Shown here one piece after another: positions 26,570-44,574 of a stretch of 64,000 nucleotides of DNA. Origin of the DNA: Demequina iriomotensis. Lineage in GTDB: Bacteria > Actinomycetota > Actinomycetes > Actinomycetales > Demequinaceae. Numbering within the stretch: the first letter of the stretch is position 1; each line of letters begins with the position of its first letter. The position numbers and the translations under genes were made by a program. Below the pieces are notes generated by a model, which was not told where the DNA came from, did not search any database, and worked only from the letters and a program-made list of their open reading frames with translations. The stretch covers positions 248,001 through 312,000 of the forward strand of contig NZ_BBME01000010.1 of NCBI RefSeq assembly GCF_000971395.1. The letters run 5' to 3'.

Positions 26570-26775
26570 GGCGCGGTGCCGCTGTGACGTTCGCCACCTT
26601 CGCCCTTCGGACCCCATCGGGCCCTCACCATCATGGCAAAATGCCGGGACTCCACGCGGAACCATCGACTATGTCAGAGGGGTTCGCTACCGTCGTGGAC
26701 ACGCCGCGGGCGTCGAAACTGGAAGTACTACGGGGTACGAGCCACAGCTGCTCTGCCTTGCTGGGGGGGCAAGAC

Positions 26776-28491
26776 ATGTTCGAATGGCTCTGGCTGCTCA
26801 TTCCCGACTCGTCGTGGTTCTCTGAGGGCGGCACTCAGTCGCTGACCGCGACATTCATCACCCTCATGATCGCGATCAGCCTACTGACGGTCCTGTGGCT
26901 CTGGCGTCAACGACGCACGTTCGCGCGCCGCATCACGGGGCTCCGCGCAGTGGTCGCGAAGGCGGGCGCGAGCGATCCGATGGAGACGCGCCGAGGCCTG
27001 GTCGCCGAGGCGATCAAGCACGACAAGGTCGTAGCGAGCCTCTGGCGCGAGTTCGACGAGACGCTCGTCGCGTCCCCGGACGGCATCAAGCTATACAACA
27101 CGGTCGACGCCGACTACTTCTTCAACGAACGCACCATTGCCCCAGGCTTGGTGCACAACCGACTGCTCACCGCTGTTCCCGCGATCCTGACCGCCGTGGG
27201 CGTCCTCGGCACGTTCCTCGGACTCACAATGGGTCTGGGTGGCTTGAACGTCCACACCACCCTCGGCGAAGGAGCCGACACACAGGAGCTCCTCGAGGGA
27301 ATCCAGGCCATGATCGGCGCCGCAGGAGTCGCGTTCGTCACGTCAGTCTGGGGTGTCCTCCTCAGCATCGTGGTCAACCTCATCGAGAAGGCCGCTGAGC
27401 GACGCGTGCTTGATGAGATCTCGTCGCTGCAGCAGTCGATCGATCACGTCTACCCCCGTGTGACGCCAGAACAGCCGTTGCTCGCGATTCAGCACTCCTC
27501 TGACGAATCGCGCCAGTCTCTGCAGGAGCTCCACGAACGCATCGGCGACCGTCTTCAGCAGACGGTCGAACAGGTCTCGCACAACCTCGAGACCGCACTT
27601 TCGTCGGCGATCTCGACGGCTATGGGCCCAGCGATGGAGAAGCTGGTCTCCACTACAACCGAGCAGTCCACCGAGGTCTTCGGACAATTGGTGGACAAGT
27701 TCGCGGCCTCCTTCACCGACATCGGCCGCAAGCAGGCCGAGGCTCTCGACGACTCGTCGACACGACTCACAGCCTCGATCGACTCGATCGCGGAGACGTT
27801 CGCCGCCATCACCGAGGAGTCGCGTCGCCAATCGCTGGAAATGCGCAACCAGCAAGCAAGCGTGCTCATGGAGCTCACCAATCTCACCGAGGCGCTCAGG
27901 AGCTCGTCCCGCGATCTCGGCGATGCGGCGACCGAGTTCGGCGAGGCAAGCCCGAAGATCGTCGCGGCGGGCACGGCGATCGAGGGAAGCCTCACGCTGG
28001 CAGCAACGACGCTGAGCAAGATCCAGGAGAATTTCGACTTGCAGGCGAGGCTTGTAGGGAGGATGCAGGAGCAATCCGCGGCTCTGGGCGGCGAGCTCGC
28101 CGCAGCAGCGACTACCGTCACCTCGGGCACCGACGCAATGGCGCAGCGGCTCGCAGAGATTGGTGATGCGCAGCACGTATTCCAATCCGAGCTGCGGACC
28201 GATGCCGAAACGGTCGCCCAGGCACTTCGCGCACACGTGTCGGATCTCGAAGCACAGGTGTCGAAGTGGCTCTCGGATTACTCCGCGGACATCGAGTCGC
28301 AGATCGAGCGCCGGATGACCGTCTGGAACTCCCACAGCCAGGACTACGCCAACCAGATGCTCGAAGTCTCGAAGGTCCTCGCGACAGTCATCAGCGAAAT
28401 CGAGCTGAAGTCACAAACCGCACGCGTAGTCGGCGAGGCCGATGAGCTAGTCCGCGAAGCCGAGGCCTCCGCCGAGGACCGCCGAGCATGA
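26776..28491 (+). CDS. zorA: Zorya type I anti-phage system, ZorA motor protein
   Basis: MotA/TolQ/ExbB-type membrane protein of 571 residues. Membrane segments are at about 21-43, 130-157 (LLTAVPAILTAVGVLGTFLGL) and 179-203. A cytoplasmic tail of about 370 residues rich in Gln, Glu and Ala heptads follows, matching the long ZorA tail. With ZorB it forms a proton-driven motor that senses phage invasion at the envelope. The ATG at 26776 has GGGGGG six bases upstream. Base use is less GC-extreme than in neighbours, which fits acquisition by transfer. Stop overlaps zorB (ATGA). Confidence 0.92.
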   Translation: MFEWLWLLIPDSSWFSEGGTQSLTATFITLMIAISLLTVLWLWRQRRTFARRITGLRAVVAKAGASDPMETRRGLVAEAIKHDKVVASLWREFDETLVASPDGIKLYNTVDADYFFNERTIAPGLVHNRLLTAVPAILTAVGVLGTFLGLTMGLGGLNVHTTLGEGADTQELLEGIQAMIGAAGVAFVTSVWGVLLSIVVNLIEKAAERRVLDEISSLQQSIDHVYPRVTPEQPLLAIQHSSDESRQSLQELHERIGDRLQQTVEQVSHNLETALSSAISTAMGPAMEKLVSTTTEQSTEVFGQLVDKFAASFTDIGRKQAEALDDSSTRLTASIDSIAETFAAITEESRRQSLEMRNQQASVLMELTNLTEALRSSSRDLGDAATEFGEASPKIVAAGTAIEGSLTLAATTLSKIQENFDLQARLVGRMQEQSAALGGELAAAATTVTSGTDAMAQRLAEIGDAQHVFQSELRTDAETVAQALRAHVSDLEAQVSKWLSDYSADIESQIERRMTVWNSHSQDYANQMLEVSKVLATVISEIELKSQTARVVGEADELVREAEASAEDRRA

Positions 28492-29300
28492 AACTTGCCC
28501 GCAGGGCCCGACGGGGCGCTGTCGACGAGGAGAACTCCTACTGGGTGTCGTTCGCCGACATTATGTCGAGCCTCCTCATCCTGTTTATCCTTGCCGCAGT
28601 GGCACTCATGGTCCAACTGATGACCAAGCAGGATGAGCTCGGCACAGCGCTCGCAGAAGTCGATCGGCAGATGAACGAGCAAGAGCTTCAGCAGGCCGCG
28701 TTCGACGAGCAGATCAGCACGATCAGCGAGGCGGAGCGCGTGCGCGCCGAGATTCTCAGCGAGATGCGCGCGCGCCTCGAGGCAGCCGGCATCAAGGTGG
28801 TTCTGAACGACGACTCGTCAGTGCTGAGCATCCCGAGCTCCGCGCTCGGGTTCGGTGCCGGAAACTATGACATCGCCCCGGCCTACCAGGACCGCGCGAC
28901 CATCATCGGAACGATCCTCAGCGACGTACTTCGAGGCTCTGATCGGACGCGCTTCCTCGATACCGTGTTCGTCGAAGGACATACAGATTCCGTACCGTTC
29001 GAGGGACCCCTCGACATGGACAATTGGGGCCTGTCTACTTTCCGAGCGATCTCCCTCTGGCAGCTCTGGGACGAGACTCTGTCGAAGAAGCAGCAACTCG
29101 ACACGCTCCGAAACGCTGAAGGAGCGCCGCTCTTCTCCGTATCGGGGTATGCCGATACACGTCCCGTCGCGGGAACGCCTGACGGCGCGTCCGAGCATGC
29201 GCCGAACAGGCGAATCGACATCCGGATCACGATTGTCCGGCCCACCAGCGACGAGCTCCGAATCATCAGCGATGAGTTCGCTACCGGCACCGCGTCATGA
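28488..29300 (+). CDS. zorB: Zorya ZorB, MotB/OmpA-like anchor protein
   Basis: A 270-residue protein with one membrane helix at about 20-43, holding the conserved ion-channel Asp24 (SFADIMSSLLILFI). A short periplasmic coiled coil follows, then an OmpA-like peptidoglycan-binding domain from about residue 150 (FVEGHTDSVPF, NRRIDIRITI). This matches ZorB, the stator partner of ZorA. Overlaps both zorA and zorC by ATGA. Confidence 0.93.
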   Translation: MKLARRARRGAVDEENSYWVSFADIMSSLLILFILAAVALMVQLMTKQDELGTALAEVDRQMNEQELQQAAFDEQISTISEAERVRAEILSEMRARLEAAGIKVVLNDDSSVLSIPSSALGFGAGNYDIAPAYQDRATIIGTILSDVLRGSDRTRFLDTVFVEGHTDSVPFEGPLDMDNWGLSTFRAISLWQLWDETLSKKQQLDTLRNAEGAPLFSVSGYADTRPVAGTPDGASEHAPNRRIDIRITIVRPTSDELRIISDEFATGTAS

Positions 29301-30844
29301 CCCTGAGGCTGCCGCCGATCGGACTTCAGATCCCGCGCGCTTGGTCTGAGAGTTCAGAACGCAGGTGGGCCCAACTCGCCTCTTCGGCGCATGATCTCCA
29401 GGGATCGGCGTCGGCATCGGGAGTGGCCAACTACGCCGAGGTTCTCCGTCCCCCGCTCCGCCGAGGCGACACAGGCACAGTCTCTCAGCTCCTCACCTCT
29501 GCCGGTGCTGTCCGTGCCCTGGCCTGGCTTTGGACCGAGGTTGACGGCGACTGCGCCGACAGCATTTCGGTAGACCTCCTAGGAGAGTTTGAACGGGCTT
29601 CGGGTGCGATCTCGCGGCTTGCGATGCAGCACCTGTTCAGGGTCTACTTCATGCGATTCGACGAACTCGACGACCTACCTGCCGACCAAGGTGGCGCGGC
29701 GATCCTCGACACACTTGGCGCGCTATTGGCCAACCAAGCGGCGCTCCGTTCCCGGAGTCCGCTTGCAGGCACGCGCGCCCCGCGGACGGAACGCGACGGC
29801 CCGTTCGCTCTCGCGCAGGCAATCCGGCAGGGTGGCGCCGATCCCGCACGGGCAATTGCAGCCGCCGGTCTCGCCTCTTACGAGGGTGGACGCTATCTGG
29901 AGCTTGTGCGACAGCACCTCTTCCTAGAGGAGTTGCGCACGCTGCCACTCGGCGCCGAACAGCCCGTTCTCGGCGAGATCCGCAATCCGGCCACGCACCG
30001 CAAGCCGCACCTTCGTGGGCGCATGCTCGGCCACGCGGCACTCGAGATCCTCATCGATCGTGCGGACCACAGCTATCCGGGGGACGCCTGGCGAGATGCG
30101 GTACTCGACGTCGCCGGTGACCCGCGCCTCACGTACCACGAGTCATATGCGACATGGTGGCCGGTGCTGGGCTCCGAGCGCGAGGATCGCGTCGCGTCCT
30201 GGTTGGCCCGCGCCGACCTCCAGATCTTCCTCGACGTGCTGGCAAGGTACTCGGAGGAAGCCGGGATCCAGGGCATGTCCCGCATGCTCCCTCCGCGCAA
30301 GCGGATGCTCGAGGGTCTGATCGATCTGGGCATCGTCCGGCGCAGCCGCCTCTACGTGGGCGACGACGTCCGCCGCTTCGCACGGCAGGCGAGCCTAGCT
30401 GCCTCGGCAAACCTCACAGGAAGCCAGTACTCGCAGCGCGCGCTCCTGTACCTCGATTGCGGCGAGTTCCACATCATCGAGGGATCGCACAACACCCAGC
30501 TCTGGACATACCTCGACGTGCCTTCGAGCCGCATCATCGATCCCACCAGGCGCCGCTTCTACTACGAGGAGCTCACGAGTGAACTTGCATCAGGATTCGT
30601 ACGCCGCTGGCAGGCCACGATGGGGACGGCGCAGGGGACCGGGCATCTTGGAATCCGCCATGCAGGCCTCTGGCAAGCGAAGTTCCTCGAGTTCCTCGCC
30701 CATCATGGGATCGCAGTCAACCCCGAGGCGCTTCTGAGCCGAGCCGATTACCAGCAACTTCGCCAACGCCATGGGCTTCCGTGGGTCAACCCGGACGGCC
30801 GCCCCGTTGCGCTGGAGAGCGAGGACACACGTGGGACTGCGTGA
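29297..30844 (+). CDS. zorC: Zorya ZorC, EH-signature domain protein
   Basis: A soluble 515-residue protein. Its position between zorB and the helicase gene, its length, and its C-terminal stretch (FLEFLAHHGIAVNPEALLSRADY with preceding aromatic FYYEEL) fit ZorC of type I Zorya, which carries the EH_signature domain and binds DNA as an effector with ZorD. No catalytic motif is visible. Overlaps zorB by 4 bases and zorD by 14 bases. Codon use includes more A/T-ending codons than the genome norm. Confidence 0.88.
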   Translation: MTLRLPPIGLQIPRAWSESSERRWAQLASSAHDLQGSASASGVANYAEVLRPPLRRGDTGTVSQLLTSAGAVRALAWLWTEVDGDCADSISVDLLGEFERASGAISRLAMQHLFRVYFMRFDELDDLPADQGGAAILDTLGALLANQAALRSRSPLAGTRAPRTERDGPFALAQAIRQGGADPARAIAAAGLASYEGGRYLELVRQHLFLEELRTLPLGAEQPVLGEIRNPATHRKPHLRGRMLGHAALEILIDRADHSYPGDAWRDAVLDVAGDPRLTYHESYATWWPVLGSEREDRVASWLARADLQIFLDVLARYSEEAGIQGMSRMLPPRKRMLEGLIDLGIVRRSRLYVGDDVRRFARQASLAASANLTGSQYSQRALLYLDCGEFHIIEGSHNTQLWTYLDVPSSRIIDPTRRRFYYEELTSELASGFVRRWQATMGTAQGTGHLGIRHAGLWQAKFLEFLAHHGIAVNPEALLSRADYQQLRQRHGLPWVNPDGRPVALESEDTRGTA

Positions 30845-33800
30845 CATCATCCGGTCCGTCCTTCAGCAGGACGAGTCCGTCGAGCCCGGCATCGGCTTCC
30901 AGGTCTCCACGGACAGCGACGGCATCAACGTCGTCACTGGCCCAGACCAGTTCGAGCGGATCGATCGCGGCGAGGGTAGCCCCCTCGCGACGGCACAGCT
31001 GATCCTGATGCGCATGCTGGTCGAGCAGGGTCTGGCCGATGAGATCCCGCGCGGCTTCCAGATCGATGCGGTGCACGCGGCCGCGTTGGACGGCGAGGCC
31101 GCAGCTCTCCTGGACCTCCCGCCTCGCTATGCCGGGCGCGTCACCACCACCATCACGGGTCACACAGCCTCCACCAGGTTCGCCGTCGCCGCATCCGGCG
31201 AGGTCGACGGCGTGAGCGGCCGCATCCGCCTCAGCGGCCCCACGATGCGCATCGCGGGCGCTGACTTCCTCGCATCGCCCGTCGAGCTCGCCGCGCTGCG
31301 CGCCATCGACGCACACGCGGAGCTCGCGGAGGCCGACCGCACCGAGACCGCCAATGCGATGCTCGTCGCTTCGCTCCAGCGCGCCGCCGCCGAGGGCATG
31401 GACATCGACCTTGCGCACTTCACGCGGGGCGGCTGGACCACGTCCGTGCCCGGCGAGGTCGGCATCTCGGCTGCGCAGACCGCCGACGGCGGGCTGGTGC
31501 TCTCCCCCGCGCTTGCAGGCCTGCGCGTCGACGAGGCCGAGTCGCGATGGCACCAGGTGAGCGGTCGCTCGAGCGGCGTGCTGCGCGTGGGCAAGGGGCT
31601 CATCGTCCTCGAGGAGAGGTCGATGACAGCGGTGCACGAAGTCCTCCGCAATCGCACCATCGCGCCGGAGGAGGTCGAGGCGTTCCTCAGGACTCCGAGC
31701 GCGTTCCTCGACGCCGCGTTGGTGAACCTCGAGCTAGGCTTCTCCGTCCGCGTCGAGGGCATCGGTCGCATCGAGCACATGGACTTCGGCGACGGCACCG
31801 CGAGCAACCTCGACTGGTTCGCATCAGACTCATTGCCCAAGCTGCCCCAGGTCCTCGTCGACCTTCTCAAGACGCCGGACGATGTGGCGAGGTTCGAACG
31901 CCAGCTCGAGGCCGCCAAGGTTCAGGGTGCCGATGCAGTCCGCTTCGACGCCGAGCTCATCGATATCGGCGACCCTGCGGCCGTGACGGCCGCATTGGAG
32001 AAGGCGCGCGATCGCATCGTCAACGGCGCGCCGGACGATGCACCGGTCGCCAAACGCGCGCTCGCCCCCGAGCCGACCGAGAAGGTCGGCTTCCTGCTGC
32101 GTGAGGCCGACCGCGTCGAGACGGGTCTCCCGGACCGCGCGCGCGAGGCCTCTCTCCCCCACTCCCCCGACTACTCGGGCCTACTGCGCCAGCCGTTCCC
32201 GCACCAGCGTGAGGGCATCGAATGGATGCTCCGGCTGATGTCTGCGTCTCGCACCGAGGATCGCGATCAGCTCTACCGACTCCAGGGCGCGCTTCTCGCG
32301 GACGACATGGGCCTGGGCAAGACCTACATGACGCTCGTTGCGATCTCGGAGGTGGCACGTGCGGTCGAGAACGCCGGAACGGCGGCCAAGCCCGCGCTCG
32401 TGGTTGCGCCGCTCAGCCTGATCGAGAACTGGGAGGACGAGGTCTCCAAGACCTTCGCATCGTCGCCCTTCACCGAGATCGTGGCGCTGCAGTCAGGTCG
32501 AGACCTGCGCCGATTCCGCCGGTCGGGATCAGGCCGCGAGACTGCGCAGGCCGTCACGGCGATCGACGCGGGCGGCCGGGTCAAGGACGGCGAGCTGCGC
32601 ATCTCGCTCAAGGTGGGCGCCGATGCCCGGGCGGAGCGCCTCGACAAGCCTGGGCGTCTAGTGCTCGCCACCTACGAGACCCTGCGGGACTACCAGTTCT
32701 CCCTCAGCCAGATCGACTGGGGCGTGGTGGTCTTCGATGAGGCGCAGGCGCTGAAGAACCCCGATTCGATGCGGACTCGCGCCGCCAAGGCGATGAAGGC
32801 GGACTTCAAGCTGCTGGCGACCGGCACCCCGGTGGAGAACTCGCTCGGCGAGTTCTGGTGCCTCGTGGACACCGCCCAACCCGGGCTCCTGGGCGACTGG
32901 AGCGACTTCCGCGAGCGGTACATCGTCCCCGCGCAAGAAGCCGAGGGCGTCGAGGCGGACGCCGTCCGCGCGCGCCTGGGCCGCGAGCTTCGGGAAGCGG
33001 TCGGACCCTTCATGCTCCGCCGCGAGAAAGAGGACCACCTCGAGGGGTTGCCTCCCAAGTACCTCCACACCGCGCTGGCTGCGCCTGCGGGCGCTCGCGT
33101 CATCAACGACCCGACGCTCGCCCGCACGATGCCACCAGCGCAGCGCGACGCATACGAGGCCCACCTCCATCGCTTGCGCTCGGCTACCGGCGAGGGCGGC
33201 ACCGCCGCACTGGCTGTGCTCCTAGCGCTCCGGCTCGCCTCGCTCCACCCGGAGCTGGGCGCGCACGGTGCGCGGCCGTCCATCCCCACGGATGCACGCG
33301 ACGCCGAACGTCAGTGGAGAGCCTCGGCGAAGCTCGCGGTGACGATGGACGTGCTGCGCGACATCCAGGCGCGTGGCGAGAAGGTCATCGTCTTCGCGAT
33401 GTCGAAGGACCTCCAGCTGCTGCTCGCGCTGTGGCTCAAGTTCGAGCTGGGCGTGCGACCGCACGTCATCAACGGCGACACCGCAGCATCGTCGGGCGGG
33501 CGCTCACAGTCGCGCAAGGAGCTGATCGCGGACTTCGAAGCCCGGGAGGGCTTCAACGTCATCATCATGTCGCCCATCGCGGCCGGTGTGGGGCTCACGG
33601 TGGTGGGTGCGAACCACGTCATCCACCTGGAGCGCCACTGGAACCCCGCCAAGGAGGCGCAGGCCACGGATCGCGTCTACCGCATCGGCCAGACGCGGGA
33701 CGTGCACGTGCACCTGCCCGCCGCGACGCATCCGGACCTCGACTCCTTCGATGTGCTGCTCGACCGTCTGCTCGCTAGCAAGGTACTGGTGCGTGACGCG

Positions 33801-33860
33801 GTCATGGCACCTGGGGTGGTGTCGGAGGCGGAGATGTTCGCGGCGTTCGGCGGCCGCTAG
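30831..33860 (+). CDS. zorD: Zorya ZorD, SNF2-type helicase/nuclease effector
   Basis: A 1009-residue protein. The N-terminal half (1-430) is family-specific. The SNF2 ATPase core has Walker A DDMGLGKTYM near residue 490, Walker B VVFDEAQALKN near 635, TGTPVENS, and helicase motifs V and VI (MSPIAAGVGLTVVGANHVIHLE, ATDRVYRIGQTRDV). Type I Zorya is defined by ZorC plus this large helicase. The GTG at 30831 begins GLRDIIRSVL and lies within zorC. The operon ends in a strong hairpin. All four subunits look intact. Confidence 0.92.
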   Translation: MGLRDIIRSVLQQDESVEPGIGFQVSTDSDGINVVTGPDQFERIDRGEGSPLATAQLILMRMLVEQGLADEIPRGFQIDAVHAAALDGEAAALLDLPPRYAGRVTTTITGHTASTRFAVAASGEVDGVSGRIRLSGPTMRIAGADFLASPVELAALRAIDAHAELAEADRTETANAMLVASLQRAAAEGMDIDLAHFTRGGWTTSVPGEVGISAAQTADGGLVLSPALAGLRVDEAESRWHQVSGRSSGVLRVGKGLIVLEERSMTAVHEVLRNRTIAPEEVEAFLRTPSAFLDAALVNLELGFSVRVEGIGRIEHMDFGDGTASNLDWFASDSLPKLPQVLVDLLKTPDDVARFERQLEAAKVQGADAVRFDAELIDIGDPAAVTAALEKARDRIVNGAPDDAPVAKRALAPEPTEKVGFLLREADRVETGLPDRAREASLPHSPDYSGLLRQPFPHQREGIEWMLRLMSASRTEDRDQLYRLQGALLADDMGLGKTYMTLVAISEVARAVENAGTAAKPALVVAPLSLIENWEDEVSKTFASSPFTEIVALQSGRDLRRFRRSGSGRETAQAVTAIDAGGRVKDGELRISLKVGADARAERLDKPGRLVLATYETLRDYQFSLSQIDWGVVVFDEAQALKNPDSMRTRAAKAMKADFKLLATGTPVENSLGEFWCLVDTAQPGLLGDWSDFRERYIVPAQEAEGVEADAVRARLGRELREAVGPFMLRREKEDHLEGLPPKYLHTALAAPAGARVINDPTLARTMPPAQRDAYEAHLHRLRSATGEGGTAALAVLLALRLASLHPELGAHGARPSIPTDARDAERQWRASAKLAVTMDVLRDIQARGEKVIVFAMSKDLQLLLALWLKFELGVRPHVINGDTAASSGGRSQSRKELIADFEAREGFNVIIMSPIAAGVGLTVVGANHVIHLERHWNPAKEAQATDRVYRIGQTRDVHVHLPAATHPDLDSFDVLLDRLLASKVLVRDAVMAPGVVSEAEMFAAFGGR

Positions 33861-33915: not shown

Positions 33916-36354
33916 TCAGTCGACCTGGGGAGTCTCGGGCGCGTTCCCCGCAGTCTCGAGCAGTCCGAGCAACGTCCCGAGGTCCATTCCGCTAGTTCGC
34001 ATGAACGCACGAAGCTTGGGGCCGTAGGCCGACTGAATCTGCTCGGCGAGCGCGAACTGTCCCACCCGCTGCGCGGCACGGAAGTCTCGCTGGAGGGCAA
34101 ACAGCTCGCCGAGCGCGTCGTCACCGACCGGGGTCGGACCGTCCGCCGGCGATGCATCGTCGCTCGGTTCCTCGTCCACCCGGGCCGAGTCTGCGATCAA
34201 CAGCTCCAGCACCTCGGTGACATCGTGGTCGCCGCGCGTCGACGACCAGGTGAGAAGCTCCCGAATGCCCGCGCTCGCGGCGCAACCCACGGCCGCTGCG
34301 ACATCGCTGAGGTCGTTCCCCGCATGGGGTTCGAGGCCGACCAGACCCCGGAGGCGCGCGAGCGGCTCCGCATCGCGCCCCGCCACCGCGCGGAGCTCCA
34401 CCGTTCCTGAGTCGTGGAAGACGACGAAGAAGTCGTCTCCCAGTCGGAGGTCGGTCGTGGCGAGCTCCCGGCGTACGGTGCCAAGCGACGGCTGAAGGCC
34501 CGTCCACCGAACCGCGACTGAACCCGCGACGCCGTCGAAATCGCGCGACTCGCCGTAAGCGAGACCGAGCGCGGACGCGATGCCCGGGAGCAGTGCCGTA
34601 CCGCTGCCGCGCACATGGTCATCGTTCACCACGGACCGGAACAGCCAGGCTTCGCCCACGCGGTAGACGCGCTTGGTGCGTTCGGGCGACTTCAGGCTGT
34701 CGGGGCCCACCGCGCCCGCGCGACGGACCACGCCGCCCTCGTTGACGTACGGCGGCGCGCTCGCGTAAGCCACGACAGAGTTCGGAGCGACGGAGTACTT
34801 CGCGCAGATGGACGCCACGAGATCAGCGAGCTCGAGCTCGCCGTCATGCTCGTCGAGCACGCGCCCGATGAGTCCCCGAATGTTGTCGTAAGCCTCGAGG
34901 TCCCATTCGACCAGCGCCCACTCGTCGCGGTCGACGCGCATGAATCGTTGATCCGACCCCAGCCCGTTCTTCAGCGACCTCAGCGATCGATCCTGGCCCG
35001 TCTTCGCGAGGATCGCCTCCGATGTCAGCGGGGCACCCTCGATGGAGAGCACGGCCGCGGACCGGTCGACGATGCTGCGTGCACCGAACACCAGATGCCC
35101 GGCGATGACCTCGGCACCGCAGCGGACGAACCAGTCGAAGATCTCGTCCTCGGCACGATCTCCGCCGAACGACGCGGGCAGCGCGGGACGAAGGCCCGCG
35201 AGCCGCACCACGCCATGCGCGTCGGCGAGGTCCTTCGCCAGCGAACGCAGGCGGGCCTCGGCCTGGGCAAGGCTCGGCGCCGCGCACCACCCTTCCTCGA
35301 TCTCGTAGCGATCGTCGAGCCGGTCGAGCACACGCCACACCGGCATCCCGAGACCCGGGACCAGGTCGTCGAGCGCCGGATACTCCCGGAGAAGGTCCGC
35401 GAGCGGGAGCAGGTAGCCGATCGCCTTCGCGATGCCCTCATTCACCTCGCTCAGGAGCGCGTCCTCGCGGATCTCGCGCTCGAGGCGAGCTCGTGCCTTC
35501 GCCGAGACCTGACGAATGCGCTCACGCGTGACGCCGAAGTCCTCGCCCAGCGAGTCGAGGGTGCGCGGTGAGTCCGCGAAGAGTCGCTCGATCAGAGCGG
35601 CTCTCGCCATGTCCGACTCTGCTGCGACCAGTTCGCCCAGTCGCTCTGCGGGCGACGGCACCGCGTCGAGGAGAGACAGCAGGTCGATGGTACGCAGCGC
35701 ATGAAGGCGCCCGAATGCCGCCGCGACACCTTCCGGCAGGTCGAAGAAGGTGTCGCGCGCGAGAACCTTGCCGTCGTTGCGGCCCATCGCCGCCTGGAAC
35801 TCGACGAGGGTCCTGATGTCCGCGACCACATCGTCGATCGCTGCCGGCGTGGGATCCGGGACCGCGACATCGTCAGGCGCCGGGTTGGCCTCCACCTGCG
35901 CCTCCGCCTCGCGCCCGGCCGAGAGCGCCGACGAGACAGCCCTGTCGATCAGGAGCTCGAGCGCCCGGTCGACCGTCCGGACGGCACCACCGAGGAGGTT
36001 GGCCACCTCGGACGAGTCGACGTTCTCGAGCGCACCCGGGTCCTCATCGAACGGGTACGGGAGCGTGGCGATGCCTGCCGCTTCCCGGAGGGCGTCCGCG
36101 AAGTCCTCGCCCGTCAGCGACGGGAACAGCTCTTCGAGGGTCCAGAGCTGCAGGAAGTCGCCGATGACCGCGACGAGCTCGCGGTTTCGGGTGCTGCCCG
36201 CGGCTGCAGGCTCCTTGGTGATCCCGCTCCACGCCGCATCGTCCTCCGGGCCCCGCCAGACGCGGAGCGGGATCGCGTCCACCCACGGGAAGACGTCGAT
36301 CCACGTCGGACTGGAGTCGCCTTCCCTGGCGGTCGCCTGCGTCTCTGCCGTCAT
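33916..36354 (-). CDS. Large sigma-region-4-like DNA-binding protein
   Basis: An 812-residue soluble protein. At about 258-290 is a sigma-70 region-4-like helix-turn-helix (LDSLGEDFGVTRERIRQVSA), followed by ARARLEREI as in true sigma factors. There is no region 2. About residues 430-560 look like winged-helix DNA-binding modules (SEAILAKTGQDRSLRSLKN; ELADLVASICAKY). The N- and C-terminal thirds are not recognised. It follows the DGQHR gene by 9 bases, so they form an operon within the defence island. It could regulate the island or recognise DNA for a defence pair. Confidence 0.7.
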   Translation of the reverse strand: MTAETQATAREGDSSPTWIDVFPWVDAIPLRVWRGPEDDAAWSGITKEPAAAGSTRNRELVAVIGDFLQLWTLEELFPSLTGEDFADALREAAGIATLPYPFDEDPGALENVDSSEVANLLGGAVRTVDRALELLIDRAVSSALSAGREAEAQVEANPAPDDVAVPDPTPAAIDDVVADIRTLVEFQAAMGRNDGKVLARDTFFDLPEGVAAAFGRLHALRTIDLLSLLDAVPSPAERLGELVAAESDMARAALIERLFADSPRTLDSLGEDFGVTRERIRQVSAKARARLEREIREDALLSEVNEGIAKAIGYLLPLADLLREYPALDDLVPGLGMPVWRVLDRLDDRYEIEEGWCAAPSLAQAEARLRSLAKDLADAHGVVRLAGLRPALPASFGGDRAEDEIFDWFVRCGAEVIAGHLVFGARSIVDRSAAVLSIEGAPLTSEAILAKTGQDRSLRSLKNGLGSDQRFMRVDRDEWALVEWDLEAYDNIRGLIGRVLDEHDGELELADLVASICAKYSVAPNSVVAYASAPPYVNEGGVVRRAGAVGPDSLKSPERTKRVYRVGEAWLFRSVVNDDHVRGSGTALLPGIASALGLAYGESRDFDGVAGSVAVRWTGLQPSLGTVRRELATTDLRLGDDFFVVFHDSGTVELRAVAGRDAEPLARLRGLVGLEPHAGNDLSDVAAAVGCAASAGIRELLTWSSTRGDHDVTEVLELLIADSARVDEEPSDDASPADGPTPVGDDALGELFALQRDFRAAQRVGQFALAEQIQSAYGPKLRAFMRTSGMDLGTLLGLLETAGNAPETPQVD

Positions 36355-36363
36355 GGCGGACGC

Positions 36364-37659
36364 CTAGCCGACGACGAGCGCCGGGTCCGCCACCGTCGCG
36401 CGGTACCAGACCGCGTCAGGACCCTTGACCGCCTGGCTCACGATGAACGCGGTCAGCGTCTTCATGTCCTGGACGCGCGACGTCGTGCTGGTCGAGCCCT
36501 CGCTTCGCGCGGGCACGACGCCGGTCTGGAACCAGGAGTCCCGCACGTCGGGGAACACCGGCACCGCGAAGTGCGGCGCCATCTCGGCGAATGCCTCCTG
36601 GATAGCCGCAGGCTTCCACCCGAGCTGCCGCAGCTCGAACCACGCACCCGCGATGGCGCGCAGCACGACGTTGGAGCCGATCAGCGAGCGAGACCGCACC
36701 TGCGCGGGAGTCAGCGATCCGGCCACCACGTCCCTGAGCTCGGGGAACGCCGCCGCGATCGCGTCGGTGAAGGCGGTGAACTCGATCGCGATGTTCTTGT
36801 GGTCGAGCTCGTCCTCGAGACGCGGCGTGATCTTGCGCTTGCCGTTGGTGAGCGCGTGCAGCATCTCCGACACGTGCTTGGCGCCGATCAGGTACTTCGA
36901 GGCACCGGACACGCGGTCCTGCTCGAGGTCCACGCGGCCCTCGAGGAGCTCGTTGGAGATGAGCACCGCGTTGAGCGCCCGCACCAGCACCTTGCGGTCG
37001 TCGAAGCGGCTCTTGACCGAACCGGTGATGCCCTTGGCGTTGTCATTGATGTCGAGGAAGATTCGTCGCGCGGTCTCGGGGTTCTCTACGAGCACGATCT
37101 GGATCGAGACGCGCTCGCCCGCAAGCGCGTCGCGTCGGTCGACCTTCTTCTGCAGCTCCTTCTCGGCGTTCGCGATCACGGGGCGCTCGCCGAGCTCCTT
37201 GGCTCGGCCGACGAGCGTGCGCGCCTCGGAGATGTCCGCGGTGAGCTGCTCCCACGCGAGGTGGAAGCCCAGAGTGCGGTGCTGGCCGTCGACGATCGCG
37301 ATCTCCGACTTGGCGTCCTTCGGCACCGCGAGGGTGCCGAACTGCGTGGTACCCGTGTCGAGGTCCTGGCGGGAGTCGAACTCGAAGATGTGGGGCGCGC
37401 GCAGCAGCAGCGGCGGGGACACCCAGTCGGCCTGCTCGACCACGTACGTGCCGAACTGCTTGGCGTGGGTGGGAACGATGCGACGCTGCGTCGCCGAGGC
37501 GTCCAGAGGCTTCTCCGGGTCGGGCTTCGGCAGGAAAGTGACCAGCTCGCGGACCGACAGGTCGAGCGAGAAGACGGTCCTGCCTCCCTGACGGTACTTG
37601 GCCGCGAAGAAGTACTCGTTCGGGTCGTAGCCCGTGGGAATGTGCGCATTGTTCAGCAT
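36364..37659 (-). CDS. DGQHR-domain (DndB-like) protein
   Basis: A 431-residue protein. The hallmark DGQHR is at residues 124-128 (IAIVDGQHRTLGF). A central conserved stretch (IFLDINDNAKGITGSVKSRFDD) matches DndB, the transcriptional regulator of DNA phosphorothioation genes, and related DGQHR proteins. No dndCDE or dptFGH genes are near, so it is not a canonical Dnd locus. GAGGGG is seven bases before the ATG. It is the first gene of a two-gene operon with the sigma-like protein. Confidence 0.82.
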   Translation of the reverse strand: MLNNAHIPTGYDPNEYFFAAKYRQGGRTVFSLDLSVRELVTFLPKPDPEKPLDASATQRRIVPTHAKQFGTYVVEQADWVSPPLLLRAPHIFEFDSRQDLDTGTTQFGTLAVPKDAKSEIAIVDGQHRTLGFHLAWEQLTADISEARTLVGRAKELGERPVIANAEKELQKKVDRRDALAGERVSIQIVLVENPETARRIFLDINDNAKGITGSVKSRFDDRKVLVRALNAVLISNELLEGRVDLEQDRVSGASKYLIGAKHVSEMLHALTNGKRKITPRLEDELDHKNIAIEFTAFTDAIAAAFPELRDVVAGSLTPAQVRSRSLIGSNVVLRAIAGAWFELRQLGWKPAAIQEAFAEMAPHFAVPVFPDVRDSWFQTGVVPARSEGSTSTTSRVQDMKTLTAFIVSQAVKGPDAVWYRATVADPALVVG

Positions 37660-38638: not shown

Positions 38639-39151
38639 ATGCACATGACCCACAGCGACCCCCTGGTCACTCTCCGCGCCACAGCTGAGCGCGTTGCGAA
38701 CGGTGTTCTCAAGGACCGGTGACGCGCCGAGGATGCCGCCCAGGACGCGATCAATCGACTGCTCGAGGACTGCATCGCGGGCCTTGATCGTCTCGACCGC
38801 AACGTGGCGTGCATGGCGAAGAGCACCGCCATCGATGTATTGCGGGCACCCACGATGGAGTGGTTGGCGGTCGAAGGCGACGTCGAGTGGATCGGCGACC
38901 TCGTCGACTCCCATGTCGGGCCGTCAACCTTGATTGCGCGGCCGGAGTACGTCAGGGACGTCTGCGATCCCTTGACGTCTGACGAGCGCGACAAGTTTCT
39001 AGCGACGCTCGACGGCGTCTCGAACGCCGAGCCCACCGATGCGCCGCAGAGCGCGCTGGCGACGATGCCTTGTCGCAGCCGAAGCCCAGTCAGCAGCGCC
39101 GATGTGCGGCACCGCGCGCGTGGCGGCCCTCGCCACGCATCACTACGGTGA
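38639..39151 (+). pseudogene. Decayed gene with in-frame TGA stop
   Basis: From ATG 38639 a good-looking frame reads MHMTHSDPLVTLRATAERVA and on to a TGA at 38720-38722. It then continues in the same frame with sound coding (NRLLEDCIAGLDRLDRNVAC, EWLAVEGDVEWIGDLVD, DPLTSDERDKFLATLDG) until about 39045, where it becomes Arg-rich nonsense up to a stop at 39151. A point stop plus a lost 3' end explains this best. No family recognised. Confidence 0.5.
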
Positions 39152-39155
39152 AAGA

Positions 39156-40091
39156 GTGACCGCTACTCCTGACGATGACCGGGGCATCGAGGTTCCGCGC
39201 TTTGACCACTTCTTCCGCCCCGTCCTGCTCGAGCTCGAGCGCGAGAGTCCATTGCGTACGCGCGACGTCATTTCACGAGTCGCGGACGCCCTCCGCCTGA
39301 CCGAAGCACAGCGCACAGCAGCAATCCCAAGCGGTCAGAGCAGGCTCGACAACCGCACCACCTGGGCCTGCAGCTATCTGTACCAGGCAGGCGCCCTCAC
39401 GAAACCCCGGCGCGGAATCTATGAGATCACCGACCGCGGACGCGACCTGCTCCGGACAAGACCAGATGTCATCGACGTCGACGACCTCCTCCAATTCGAA
39501 GAATTCCGCGAGTTTCAGCAGCGCAAGCGCGACACGGCCGCACCAACCGAGACCGTCGAGCCCGCCGAGGGCGATTCACCGCCGCGCGAACGCATCGAGT
39601 CCGCGATCAAGGCGGTCGACACCGAGGTCGCGGCAGACCTCCTACGCCGCCTTCGCGAGCGCGAGCCGAGGCTATTCGAACAGGCCGTGGTCGACGTCCT
39701 GCTCGCGATGGGGTACGGCGGCACAGAGCAGCGCGGAAAGCGCATCGGCGGCACTGCGGACGGCGGGGTGGACGGTGTGATCGATCAGGACGCACTCGGT
39801 CTCGACCAGATCTATGTCCAGGCCAAGCGCTACGCGCAGGGCAACAACGTCGGACGTGAAGCGATCCAGGCATTTATTGGGGCCTTGCACGGATTCGGCG
39901 CCAGCCGAGGCGTCTTCATCACGTCGAGCGACTTCACCCAGCATGCACGCGACTACGCGCAACAGATCCCGACGCGCGTCATCCTCATCGACGGCACCCG
40001 ACTCGCGCAGCTGATGATCAAGTACCGGGTAGGAGTCCAGGTCACCACCACCTACGACCTCGTCGAAGTCGACGACGACTTCTTCGAGTAG
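39156..40091 (+). CDS. mrr: Mrr-type restriction endonuclease
   Basis: A 311-residue type IV restriction enzyme that cuts modified foreign DNA. An N-terminal winged helix (about 10-100, DNA recognition) precedes a PD-(D/E)xK-like catalytic domain (170-290). The domain includes GGVDGVID (D206) and YVQAKRY (Q222, K224), the Mrr_cat signature, and GVFITSSDF. The GTG at 39156 gives the usual short N-terminus. All key residues are present. It stands alone in the island, downstream of the pseudogene. Confidence 0.9.
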   Translation: MTATPDDDRGIEVPRFDHFFRPVLLELERESPLRTRDVISRVADALRLTEAQRTAAIPSGQSRLDNRTTWACSYLYQAGALTKPRRGIYEITDRGRDLLRTRPDVIDVDDLLQFEEFREFQQRKRDTAAPTETVEPAEGDSPPRERIESAIKAVDTEVAADLLRRLREREPRLFEQAVVDVLLAMGYGGTEQRGKRIGGTADGGVDGVIDQDALGLDQIYVQAKRYAQGNNVGREAIQAFIGALHGFGASRGVFITSSDFTQHARDYAQQIPTRVILIDGTRLAQLMIKYRVGVQVTTTYDLVEVDDDFFE

Positions 40092-40176: not shown

Positions 40177-42102
40177 ATGAGCGTCGAGATGCAACAGCCG
40201 ACCATCACGGATCTCCTCAAAGACGTGCGAACGGGGCGCATCCAGCTGCCGGACTTCCAGCGCGAGTACCGGTGGGACGTCGAACGCATCCGTGAACTCC
40301 TGGTGACCGTGCTCAAGGGCCACCCCATGGGTGTGGTGATGGTCCTCCAGACCGGAAGCGACCACGTGAGGTTCAAGCCAAAGCCACTCACCGGCGTGGT
40401 GCGCGGAGGCGACGACTGCCGCGAGTGCCAGGAACGTTTCAGTTCCAAGGCCCCCGCCACGGTCGCAGCGCCGGACTACCTTCTCCTGGACGGCCAGCAG
40501 CGCCTCACTTCGCTGTTCCAGGCGTTGTCGGGGGACGGTGTGGTGCATTCCGCGGACGACAAGGGCAAGCTGCGTCACGTCCGCTACTTCTTAGACGTCG
40601 AGCTGGCTCTAGGCGACGACGGCAGCCAGTCTGATGCGATCGTGGTGATGCCCGCGGACGCCGTCGAACGCACCAATTTCGGCAGGGACATCGTGCGCGA
40701 CTGCAGCACACTTGAGGGTCAGGTCGAGCACGGGCTGCTTCCCATCACCGCGATCTACGACGACACGGCCATCACCTGGATGCTCGAGTGGATCAAGCCC
40801 GACGCGACGCGCGCAGCGACATTCCAGCGGCTTCAGAGCGACGTGTTCCTGCGCATGAAGTCGTACCAGATCCCCGGGATCGAGCTCCTCAAGTCCACAT
40901 CGCGCGAGGCGGTAGCTACCGTGTTCGAGAAGGTCAACACCGGCGGCCTTGCGCTCGACACCTTTGAACTGCTCACTGCGACGTTCGCGGGTGATCCGTC
41001 GGGGACAGGCGAGGACGGTTCCGACTTCCGGCTCGTCGACGATTGGAAGCTCACCAAGGAGATCCTGGAGCGGCACCCCACGCTTGGCGGCTTCCAACGC
41101 GTGTTCTTCCTCCAGGCCGTCACGCTCCTGGCCACCCACGCAAAGCGTCAGGCAGAGATAGCGGCCGACAAGTCCAAGCCGAGACCGACAAGCGCGCGGC
41201 GGGAGGATATCCTCAGGCTGCAGCTCACGGACTACCGCCGGTGGGCGGATGAGGTGCGCGCCGCACTGCCGTGGGTAGCGCACTTCCTCACCGAGCAGCA
41301 CATCCACTCGGACCGGTTCGTGCCCTACGCGACGCAGTGCGTGCCGCTCACCGTCATCCGGGTGCTGCTGGGTCACGATGCTGACAAGTACGCGGTCAAG
41401 CAGCGACTTCAGCAGTGGTACTGGTGCGGCGTGCTCGGCGAGCAGTACGGATCGACCACCGAGACCAAGTTCGCACGCGACGTGGATCAGGTACCCGACT
41501 GGGCGCTCGCTGCGGTGGACGGGCGCCAGGCGCGCCAGCCCGAGACTGTGACCGTCGCATCGTTCGCCGAGACGCGTCTCCTGACACTTCGCACGCGGCT
41601 GTCCGCGGCGTACAAGGGCGTCTACGCGCTGCTCATGCACGGCGGCTGCAAGGACTGGCAGTTTGACCAGGACATCGACCACGCGCACTACAACGAGATG
41701 AACGTGGACATCCACCACATCTTCCCCAAGAAGTGGTGCGAGAAGAACGACATCGACGATGCACGTCGGGAGTCGATCGTGAACAAGACTCCGCTCGGCC
41801 GCAAGACGAACATCATGATCTCGGCGAACTCACCTGCGGACTACGTTCCGATGCTCGAGGCAAGATCCGGACTCGCCCCGGAATCGATGGACGGAATCCT
41901 TCGTTCCCACCTGATCGATCCGCAGCTCTTGCGCGCTGCAGACTTCGACCGCTTCTTTGAAGCCCGTCGCGAAGCCCTTGTGACGATGATCGAAGGCGCA
42001 ATGGGCAAGCCCGTTCTTCGGGACATGGAGATGACGGACCGATCTGACCTCGTCTTTGAGGAGGCGGACGCGGACGAGCCCGACTTGGATGACGAAGCAT
42101 GA
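40177..42102 (+). CDS. GmrSD-like DUF262/HNH restriction protein
   Basis: A 641-residue fusion of an N-terminal DUF262 domain and a C-terminal HNH nuclease of the DUF1524 type. QLPDFQREYRWDVERI and LLLDGQQRLTSL (DGQQR, 105-109) are the DUF262 signatures for NTP binding. DIHHIFPKKW (H513, H514) is the nuclease core. GmrSD enzymes restrict DNA with modified, often glucosylated, cytosines. Four Cys near residues 87-90 and a further HNH-associated region suggest metal binding. GGGAG lies before the start. The stop overlaps the DUF429 gene (ATGA). Confidence 0.88.
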   Translation: MSVEMQQPTITDLLKDVRTGRIQLPDFQREYRWDVERIRELLVTVLKGHPMGVVMVLQTGSDHVRFKPKPLTGVVRGGDDCRECQERFSSKAPATVAAPDYLLLDGQQRLTSLFQALSGDGVVHSADDKGKLRHVRYFLDVELALGDDGSQSDAIVVMPADAVERTNFGRDIVRDCSTLEGQVEHGLLPITAIYDDTAITWMLEWIKPDATRAATFQRLQSDVFLRMKSYQIPGIELLKSTSREAVATVFEKVNTGGLALDTFELLTATFAGDPSGTGEDGSDFRLVDDWKLTKEILERHPTLGGFQRVFFLQAVTLLATHAKRQAEIAADKSKPRPTSARREDILRLQLTDYRRWADEVRAALPWVAHFLTEQHIHSDRFVPYATQCVPLTVIRVLLGHDADKYAVKQRLQQWYWCGVLGEQYGSTTETKFARDVDQVPDWALAAVDGRQARQPETVTVASFAETRLLTLRTRLSAAYKGVYALLMHGGCKDWQFDQDIDHAHYNEMNVDIHHIFPKKWCEKNDIDDARRESIVNKTPLGRKTNIMISANSPADYVPMLEARSGLAPESMDGILRSHLIDPQLLRAADFDRFFEARREALVTMIEGAMGKPVLRDMEMTDRSDLVFEEADADEPDLDDEA

Positions 42103-42791
42103 CCTACCTCGGCCTCGACGCCTGCAAGAAGGGCTGGGTCGTCGCGGCGATCGACGACGACGGCTGGGTCGACCTCTTCGTCGCCTCGGGTATCGCTGAG
42201 GCCGAGGCGCGCGGGATCGACGAATTCGGGGCGACGCTCCTGGTGGTCGACATCCCGATCGGCATCCCAGACTCAGGTCCGCGGCGCGCGGACCAGCTCG
42301 CGCGTCGGTCTATCGCCCCGCGAGGATCAAGCGTCTTTCCCACCCCCGTGCGGACCGCGCTGGTGGCCCCGACGTACGAGGCAGCCCGCATAGCCTCGCT
42401 CGCCGCATCCGGCAAGAGCCTCTCGAAGCAGGCGCATGCGATCGCCGAACGGGTCCTGGACGTCGACGGGTATGTCGCGCACGCGTCGATCCCGGTTCGC
42501 GAAGGCCATCCCGAGGTGAGCTTCCGTGCGATGGCCGGCAAGGGCATCGTCCACCCGAAGAAGACTTACGCGGGCGCATCACTGCGCCTGGACCTGCTTC
42601 GCGAGGAGGGCATCGCGGTGCCCGTCGGGCTCGAGCGCGATCTGCCTGGCGCAGCATGGGATGACGTGCTGGATGCCGCCGCGATGGCGTGGACGGCCCG
42701 CCGCGTCGCGCGCGGTGAGGCGGACCGATTCCCGGCACTGAAGAAAGCGGAGCGATTCAGCGACGGCATCGACTCCGCGATCTGGCTCTAA
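42099..42791 (+). CDS. DUF429 family, predicted RNase H-like protein
   Basis: A 230-residue protein beginning TYLGLDACKKGWVVAAID, the standard DUF429 start with its first acidic residue on strand one. LLVVDIPIGIPDSG gives the second Asp, and DDVLDAAAMAWTARRVARG carries the third acidic site. The RNase H-like fold suggests nuclease activity, unproven for the family. Translation is coupled to the upstream DUF262/HNH gene by ATGA, so the two probably act together. Confidence 0.85.
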   Translation: MTYLGLDACKKGWVVAAIDDDGWVDLFVASGIAEAEARGIDEFGATLLVVDIPIGIPDSGPRRADQLARRSIAPRGSSVFPTPVRTALVAPTYEAARIASLAASGKSLSKQAHAIAERVLDVDGYVAHASIPVREGHPEVSFRAMAGKGIVHPKKTYAGASLRLDLLREEGIAVPVGLERDLPGAAWDDVLDAAAMAWTARRVARGEADRFPALKKAERFSDGIDSAIWL

Positions 42792-42819
42792 CTGCTCCGA
42801 GTGCTTGCATCCGGCCAAC

Positions 42820-43680
42820 GTGGAGGTCAAGGAAGCGGCACTGCGCGCCGATAACAGCCACGTGGAACTACCGCGCGTGCGTCGATACCGGAGGAACGGC
42901 ATCGACCGCCTCTATGTCGACCACGTGATCGACGGCGTGCCGCGCTGCCTCGGCTGGGCCGAGACCGACTCAGGCGAGATCACCATTCAAGTTCCCGGAT
43001 CCGAGGCGCGGGTCGAGACTGCTCTCGAGAACTGGGCACGCTTCTTCCCCGAGGACGACCTGGCCTCGCATGCGCCCGGCAGGAACGTCCGGGCCCTCGC
43101 CGCCGCGTGGGCGCGCGAGATCGACGACATCGACGGCGAGCTCACCCAACTCGCGGCGTTGCGCGACATGGCCGTCTACCAGCACGCGCAGTATGCCAAG
43201 GGTAGCTCCGGCGAAACCATGATCGGTAACGAGCTCAACGCCCTTTACACGCACGGCTGGGGGCTGCTCCACTCGATCCCCACCTATGGCGGCCTCGGCG
43301 ACATCGACCGCCTCCTGATCGGGCCGGGCGGGGTGTGGACCGTCAACGCCAAGAAGCACCCGGCCGGTCCGATCGTGGTCGACGGCGACACCTTGCGCGT
43401 GGGCCGGGTTCGCGTCGACTACGTCCGAAGCGCGCGCCGAGAGGCCGGGCACGCCGCTGACGTCCTCGCGCGCTCGGGTGCGTCGTGCGACGTCCTAGCG
43501 ATGGTCGTGCTCGATATCCCCCGCGCGCGCGACCTGACCGTCTGGAACCCGCCGGCAGGCGTCGAGGTCGCTACGCGCGCATCGTCTATCCCGACCCTGC
43601 GCGGCCAGCCCCGGCGACTCGAGCAGGCGCAGATCAACCACATCTTTTCGATCGCCCGCCGACGCCAGACCTGGGAGTAG
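42820..43680 (+). CDS. NERD-domain protein 1
   Basis: About 286 residues. A helical N-terminal part is followed by a nuclease-related domain (NERD) at about 130-280: YAKGSSGETMIGNELNAL, LHSIPTYGGLGDIDRLLIG and GVWTVNAKKHPAG. The Asp and Lys fit a PD-(D/E)xK-like core. The C-terminus QINHIFSIARRRQTW resembles the next gene. No start has a clear ribosome site: GTG 42820 is my choice. GTG 42862 would line up with the start of its paralogue, and TTG 42805 is also open. Confidence 0.75.
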   Translation: MEVKEAALRADNSHVELPRVRRYRRNGIDRLYVDHVIDGVPRCLGWAETDSGEITIQVPGSEARVETALENWARFFPEDDLASHAPGRNVRALAAAWAREIDDIDGELTQLAALRDMAVYQHAQYAKGSSGETMIGNELNALYTHGWGLLHSIPTYGGLGDIDRLLIGPGGVWTVNAKKHPAGPIVVDGDTLRVGRVRVDYVRSARREAGHAADVLARSGASCDVLAMVVLDIPRARDLTVWNPPAGVEVATRASSIPTLRGQPRRLEQAQINHIFSIARRRQTWE

Positions 43681-43683
43681 ACC

Positions 43684-44574
43684 ATGACGGACATTGCCCT
43701 CAATCGCTGGACGCGCTACGGCCACGACCGCGTCTACGCGGCCGGGCCCGACGGCACGCGCCTCGGCTTCATCGACCTCAAAACCGGCGAGGTCACTCTC
43801 GAGCCCAGTGTCGACGCGTCCGTGGGCGATGCGCTGCGCACTTGGGGTTCCGGTCAGCGAGAGACATCGGCAACCGCCCCGGCCGAGGAGCATCCCGAGG
43901 CCGAGCCACCGGCGGCCGGGCCGGATGTGCGCGATTGGACTGACCTCGCTGGCAACCCGCCCGGGGCCATAGTTCGCGCGCAGGCCGCCGATGCATGGGA
44001 GCGCGAGAAGCGCGTCGGCAAGGTTATTCCCCACCTCGCGCGGGCTCTGGATGTCCACACCGACGAGCGTGCGTGGCGCAAGGGAGCGGAGGGCGAGGAG
44101 AAGGTCGGCGCGGTCCTGGAGCGCATGACGAAGCGTGGTTGGCGGATCATCCACTCGATCCCGGTCGGCGAGAACTCGGATATCGACCACCTCGCGATCG
44201 GTCCGGGCGGCGTGGTTCTCGTCAACACGAAGCACCACCCGGGAGCCAAGGTCACGGTCACCAAGTACGGGGTGCTGGTCAACGGATCGAAGACCGACCA
44301 CGCCCCGCAGGCCAGAGCACAGGCGAAGAAGGCATACGAGCTGCTCAACGCCGCGGGCGCCGACGTCGAGCGCGTGGTGCCGTGGATCGCCGTCTACAAC
44401 GGCAGCGTGCTGCAGCCCGAGATGAAGCTGGCGGGCAGGATCCCTGGCGTCGGCGTCGTGACGAACCACAACATCAACACCAACCTCAAGCGCCTCGATC
44501 CGGTGCTGTCACCCGAGCGAGTGGATGCGATCTACGAAATCGCGCGCCGGTCGACCACCTGGACCGCACTCTGA
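43684..44574 (+). CDS. NERD-domain protein 2
   Basis: A 296-residue paralogue of the preceding gene, three bases downstream. Shared features: a short N-terminal sheet region (RYGHDRVYAAGPDG), then a NERD domain with GAEGEEKVGAVLERM, IHSIPVGENSDIDHLAIGPG and VLVNTKHHPGAKV, and the end RVDAIYEIARRSTTW. A Pro/Glu-rich linker (60-85) is unique to this copy. Both nuclease cores look intact. GGGAG lies before the ATG. NERD domains occur in DNA-processing and defence proteins. Confidence 0.82.
   Translation: MTDIALNRWTRYGHDRVYAAGPDGTRLGFIDLKTGEVTLEPSVDASVGDALRTWGSGQRETSATAPAEEHPEAEPPAAGPDVRDWTDLAGNPPGAIVRAQAADAWEREKRVGKVIPHLARALDVHTDERAWRKGAEGEEKVGAVLERMTKRGWRIIHSIPVGENSDIDHLAIGPGGVVLVNTKHHPGAKVTVTKYGVLVNGSKTDHAPQARAQAKKAYELLNAAGADVERVVPWIAVYNGSVLQPEMKLAGRIPGVGVVTNHNINTNLKRLDPVLSPERVDAIYEIARRSTTWTAL

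Follow-up and report, generated by a model that had tools for sequence, protein, structure and literature searches.

The gene pair and its surroundings

The window, our term for the whole 64,000-nucleotide stretch of DNA analyzed, is part of a Demequina genome (G000), and the nearest relatives of its DUF429 protein in named records are also from Demequina. A sequence-only reading of this DNA had described two ORFs overlapping by ATGA, one encoding a GmrSD-like protein and the other an RNase H-like DUF429 protein. Both ORFs are present where that reading placed them (Table 1), and the final four bases of the GmrSD ORF form the start of the DUF429 ORF. The family calls also hold, as the GmrSD_N (DUF262) domain matches Pfam at 3.8e-27 (96.2 bits, cut-off 33.2; residues 10-270) and DUF429 at 1.4e-44 over residues 5-213, almost the whole protein.

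Table 1. Positions of the gene pair, its predicted functional residues and the upstream restriction gene
Feature	Position	Strand	Details
Mrr-type type IV restriction gene	39039..40091 (start may be 39102)	+	85 bases upstream of GmrSD
GmrSD-type protein	40177..42102	+	641 aa; DUF262 N-terminal domain and putative His-Me (HNH-like) C-terminal part
DGQQR motif	40489..40503	+	residues 105-109; predicted NTP site of GmrS; invariant in 12/12 relatives
DIHHIFP	41707..41727	+	residues 511-517; predicted HNH catalytic histidines; N536 and N545 downstream
ATGA overlap, GmrSD stop / DUF429 start	42099..42102	+	read from the sequence
DUF429 protein	42099..42791	+	230 aa; RuvC/RNase-H-like fold
DUF429 Asp 7 (42117-42119) and Asp 51 (42249-42251)	42117..42251	+	predicted catalytic; 33/35 rows each
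DUF429 E135/H137/E139 and D188/D189/D192	42501..42674	+	conserved acidic/His; 34/35 rows, remaining row gapped

The region is a defense island. The Mrr-type gene immediately upstream matches Mrr_N (2.1e-24), Mrr_cat (2e-35) and the PADLOC model mREase_IV (5.5e-83), and further out the window encodes a DndB/DGQHR protein, two NERD proteins and a NYN protein. Four genes at 26584-33860, encoding a 635-amino-acid coiled protein, a MotB/OmpA-like protein, an EH_Signature protein and an SNF2 helicase, have a make-up that we take to resemble that of a Zorya defense operon. On the minus strand at 33916-37659, the DndB/DGQHR gene is followed 9 bases later by a gene for an 812-amino-acid protein with a weak match to sigma-70 region 4; scanning the neighbors of these two turned up no Dnd modification genes. 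The NERD genes are in tandem directly downstream of DUF429 (42805-44574), and single NERD genes occur near DUF429 in several other Demequina.

Searching 297 genomes of the order, we found relatives of the GmrSD protein in 12 other genomes at 48-55% identity. The (I/V)DGQQR feature of GmrS is present in the window protein, in the context LLLDGQQR; the available part of PMC4619093 proposes this motif as the NTP site of GmrS. The C-terminal part matched GmrSD_C (DUF1524) at an E value of 0.032 and 14.5 bits, below the Pfam cut-off of 23, and a match to this domain was seen in 6 of the 12 family members at E values up to 1 (best 0.0051). Because the domain scores below the cut-off, the HNH assignment rests on conservation of the motif: D, I, both histidines (513-514), F and P, together with N536 and N545, are invariant in the alignment of all 12 relatives.

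In the DUF429 alignment of 35 rows, D7 is gapped in two, and D51 is replaced by threonine in one and gapped in another. With the predicted catalytic residues kept across relatives of each protein, the intact acidic or histidine sites attributed to both by the sequence-only reading are borne out. A structure model of DUF429 (pLDDT 79.7) maps D7 and D51 to strands 1 and 4 of the RNase H core. Its best structural match in the PDB is Thermus thermophilus RuvC (Z 11.1, rmsd 3.1, 146 residues), and RuvC resolvases account for all of the first eight matched chains, with Z scores of 9.6-11.1 and 136-146 residues aligned. Foldseek against the PDB gave no match that was counted at E ≤0.001, the best again being RuvC with a printed value of 1.0e-3, and a phmmer search of the PDB gave no hit for GmrSD or DUF429. 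The RuvC match agrees with PMC3985635, whose accessible portion describes DUF429 as usually a single-domain protein and assigns it to clade D, which also includes RuvC, within the RNase H-like superfamily. By its codon substitutions, DUF429 is under purifying selection, with dN/dS values of 0.15-0.24 against four close relatives.

Our literature search found little biology assigned to DUF429 beyond mycobacterial RelZ. To our knowledge, the nearest tested relative of the window protein is the N-terminal part of RelZ. RelZ (MSMEG_5849) is a DUF429-RelA fusion (PMC4429107, available part) that cleaves RNA:DNA hybrids and R-loops and removes R-loops under replication stress (PMC7591505, likewise in part).

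Overlap by itself was ruled out as evidence of shared function. The GmrSD-DUF429 junction is not unusual, since 59 of 283 same-strand neighbor pairs at the loci of this study, with gene boundaries set by an in-house codon-usage gene caller, have an overlap of exactly 4 bases. At the same loci, 101 of the 283 pairs are spaced within 10 bases.

Distribution of the two genes beyond Demequina

The sequence-only reading had suggested that coupling of a second predicted nuclease to GmrSD makes a two-part system. The distribution of the two genes speaks against this. A DUF429 HMM detected no DUF429 near any of 13 GmrSD relatives (the 12 at 48-55% identity and a further one, in G618, at 31%) in up to 8 kb per side. 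When the order was searched for DUF429, 11 of the 12 genomes that carry a GmrSD relative at 48-55% identity gave no match, and the twelfth, G481, has one on another contig. Conversely, DUF429 relatives were found in 44 of 297 genomes of the order (taken, on the equal counts, as the same genomes as in the GmrSD search), 35 of them outside the family. None of these 35 carries DUF262 near DUF429, and 19 carry DUF262 elsewhere. The pair is thus kept neither with near GmrSD relatives nor with DUF429 relatives outside the family. As the genomes are drafts, contig ends can hide neighbors (the contig in G036 is 5.7 kb).

At the level of the phylum, where DUF429 occurs in 93 and DUF262 in 103 of 396 genomes, 20 genomes have both, versus 24.2 expected (Fisher p 0.28), and the two genes are adjacent only in the window (1 of 396 genomes). 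McrC lies within 5 kb of DUF429 in one of the 80 genomes searched (G221, about 4 kb away and uncoupled); these 80 were taken from 126 DUF429-bearing out-of-family genomes of the phylum and order samples. The idea that DUF429 is a generally defense-linked family was rejected: 20 neighborhoods (L093-L112) are without GmrSD and show contexts common to near relatives, their genes having been clustered rather than annotated one by one.

Viral contigs held no relative of the GmrSD or the DUF429 protein by our search, and a phage collection yielded one putative DUF429 in a 9.6-kb record. Our literature search returned no paper with both DUF262 and DUF429, and the McrBC census in PMC11090510 gave no hit for DUF429 or RNase H.

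Plasmids provided two further neighboring pairs. Of 15 records with a DUF429 match, 14 were examined, one of which was unannotated, and a 25% fragment (H57) was left out; DUF262 lies within about 2 kb of DUF429 in two of the 13 annotated regions, both haloarchaeal. On a plasmid of Haladaptatus sp. QDMS2 the two genes are neighbors, and on one of Natronosalvus rutilus they are divergent and 58 bases apart. A sister plasmid from Haladaptatus sp. DYSN1 keeps DUF429 and its next gene and lacks DUF262. The Natronosalvus rutilus locus (L141) continues from DUF262 into QueC/QueE/PTPS-type 7-deazaguanine genes, which may point to modification of DNA bases, and an AAA ATPase. A Natrarchaeobaculum plasmid (L146) has AAA ATPases close to DUF429 and a Piwi-domain gene at a distance of about 5 kb from it.

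Changing neighbors at a Demequina hotspot

Among 47 genomes of the family, 15 contain a relative of the window DUF429, and 24 contain DUF262, at 39 places. In 7 of the 15 DUF429 loci (G000, G006, G007, G009, G013, G026 and G034), DUF262 lies within about 3 kb, versus about 0.05 expected by random placement according to our arithmetic. By the survey of DUF429 beside DUF262 that the sequence-only reading called for, the proposed two-part system fails, and what is left is genus-level: the two are associated in Demequina, but not in the order or the phylum. The genus-level association is real, but largely explained by residence in a hotspot.

The content of this hotspot varies. The DUF262 types beside DUF429 in the window, in G006/G009, in G013 and in the DUF1524-bearing loci of G007, G026 and G034 are 23-31% alike across types; the GmrSD types of the window, G006/G009 and the DUF1524-bearing loci are 23-27% alike. 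In G013, DUF429 lies beside McrB-McrC and overlaps McrC by 4 bases (GTGA). Type I restriction genes, labeled from reading the translations, adjoin DUF429 in G032, G044 and G026. A divergent set encoding DUF6361, PLD-like and helicase proteins stands beside DUF429 in G018, G008 and G041, with part of it in G036 and remnants in G021. This three-gene set, intact at L024, L029 and L032, cut at L028 and reduced to remnants at L034, looks like a recurring candidate defense cassette.

The right flank, by comparison, with NERD, alcohol dehydrogenase-like, MscS-like and beta-lactamase-like genes, recurs across genomes, although G011, G026 and G032 have few of the common flank genes. Since the flank recurs, and does so also in seven genomes that are without DUF429, these loci represent one hotspot with changing content. 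DUF262 is present in 7 of 15 hotspots with DUF429 and in 1 of 7 without it, a comparison with little power (p 0.19).

In a maximum-likelihood tree of DUF429, the sister of the window protein is that of G018 (support 99/96), whose upstream neighbor is on the opposite strand and unrelated. Likewise, DUF429 of G006, which has a GmrSD neighbor, pairs with that of G013, which has McrBC (99/97). Within the window clade, the tight same-strand partners are GmrSDa (-4), McrC (-4) and GmrSDb (8 bases, in two species). Each of these four partners is a type IV enzyme, GmrSD in three genomes and McrBC in one. A 58-59% relative of GmrSDb in G030 has no DUF429 downstream.

One pair probably moved as a unit. 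Between G006 and G009, the GmrSD and DUF429 genes are the sole alignable block, and the sequence on both sides is unrelated. Their dS values, from a simple Nei-Gojobori count that is near saturation in places, are 1.07 and 1.09, versus 0.40 for the flanking MscS-like gene. Because the pair has equal dS above that of the flank and is the only homologous block, the two genes probably traveled together. DUF429 may also be a gene of the island rather than a fixed bystander, as its silent sites diverge more than the flanks. At these loci (L025 and L027), dN is 0.06 for GmrSD and 0.25 for DUF429, with dS about 1.08 for both, so that the DUF429 protein evolves roughly four times as fast.

In another group of loci (L030-L036), the motif GCCA[GT]G[CA]TC lies exactly 5 bases before the DUF429 start in 7 of 7 cases, and in five of them a TTG hexamer lies 17 bases before the CAGG[CA]T of this element. 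Per locus, the consensus scores are not significant (shuffle p 0.07-0.31), and support comes from the element being conserved in all 7 loci at an unchanging distance from the start. The element, absent from all seven window-clade loci, could be the promoter of a leaderless transcript. As L030-L036 carry this promoter-like element, DUF429 can be its own unit, which suggests that it was once independent and was later placed under the upstream gene in the window clade.

Interpretation and comparison with known systems

From the sequences, domains and conserved residues of the two proteins, the turnover of partners in Demequina and the absence of pairing elsewhere, we infer their biochemical activities, the order of events and their functional independence. 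GmrSD and DUF429 are probably two separate proteins in a recently formed operon, brought together as neighbors in a changing defense hotspot. GmrSD would be a stand-alone, NTP-dependent type IV (modification-dependent) restriction enzyme, its DUF262 domain sensing modified DNA and turning over NTP and its HNH-like part cutting. DUF429 would be a metal-dependent nuclease of the RuvC/RNase-H fold, acting most likely on RNA in RNA:DNA hybrids or on branched nucleic acid. It sits at one edge of the Demequina chromosomal hotspot, where the adjoining defense gene has presumably been exchanged repeatedly. When a newcomer arrives in the same direction, DUF429 would be expressed through it, the gap between the two being small or absent, so that coupling would set the expression of DUF429 and the restriction enzyme would not need it. 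The sequence-only reading had offered DUF429 three roles, namely processing the product, removing RNA or guarding the host; it may have any of these activities, but nothing in the genomic evidence calls for it to exert them together with GmrSD.

Type IV restriction enzymes are usually taken to act alone. A different reading would make DUF429 in Demequina a portable accessory of such enzymes, both GmrSD and McrBC, that goes with whichever of them holds the site and, by means of its RuvC/RNase H fold, handles R-loops, branched ends or RNA-primed fragments after the cut. Tight same-strand coupling to GmrSDa, McrC and GmrSDb argues for this, as do the inheritance of the G006/G009 pair as a block with equal dS and the purifying selection on DUF429. 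We nonetheless consider it unlikely: none of the 13 GmrSD relatives has DUF429, nor does the GmrSDb relative in G030, close DUF429s stand divergent to sets that are not type IV, and McrC near DUF429 was limited to the single uncoupled case in G221. Slightly less likely still is a fuller version, in which DUF429 is an interchangeable accessory nuclease of type IV restriction in Demequina, and perhaps independently in haloarchaea, that keeps a fixed site while GmrSD and McrBC enzymes are swapped in front of it, and that becomes coupled anew after each swap through a start-stop overlap or with just a few bases in between. If DUF429 were such an accessory, type IV enzymes would share a downstream nuclease and DUF429 would gain a role in defense; of the alternatives, this is the one worth a test at the bench.

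DUF429 might instead guard the host by clearing R-loops or repairing self-damage after the restriction enzyme misfires, in which case it may be hard to delete beside the nuclease. Removal of R-loops by the RelZ fusion (PMC7591505, available part) and the retention of DUF429 through several nuclease exchanges are in keeping with such a role, but 11 of the 12 genomes with a near GmrSD relative do without a DUF429 match, and we regard it as improbable. An obligate two-component nuclease, with both proteins acting on one substrate, was rejected as very improbable: translational coupling, intact sites in both proteins and recurrence beside several DUF262 types in Demequina favor it, but close relatives of either gene occur without its partner, the pairing is not conserved outside the genus, sister DUF429s have swapped partners, and GmrSD enzymes such as Eco94GmrSD work without a DUF429-type partner (PMC4437046, in the part available).

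If, as we favor, the two proteins are separate, the window adds a GmrSD-type enzyme and illustrates how overlapping genes in a hotspot can suggest systems that do not exist. Like the type IV enzymes GmrSD, Eco94GmrSD and BrxU, the window protein is a fused single chain that combines a DUF262 domain carrying DGQQR with a putative His-Me/HNH-like end in which H, N and N are conserved, and it lies in a defense-island setting. It differs in that its C-terminal part scores under the Pfam GmrSD_C cut-off and no PDB chain was matched by sequence.

The DUF429 protein has the domain and RNase H-like fold of its family (COG2410/COG4328/COG4923), to which the RNase HII part of RelZ also belongs, and its conserved acids lie on strands 1 and 4 and on the C-terminal helix. 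It differs in being a single domain without a RelA/SpoT or NUDIX partner, and it lies in a defense hotspot, whereas the 20 DUF429 loci sampled at order, class or phylum level are not next to GmrSD. With the RuvC Holliday-junction resolvases it has the fold in common, a likeness that shows no common substrate; identity is 17%, and the window protein has an extra conserved HPE motif.
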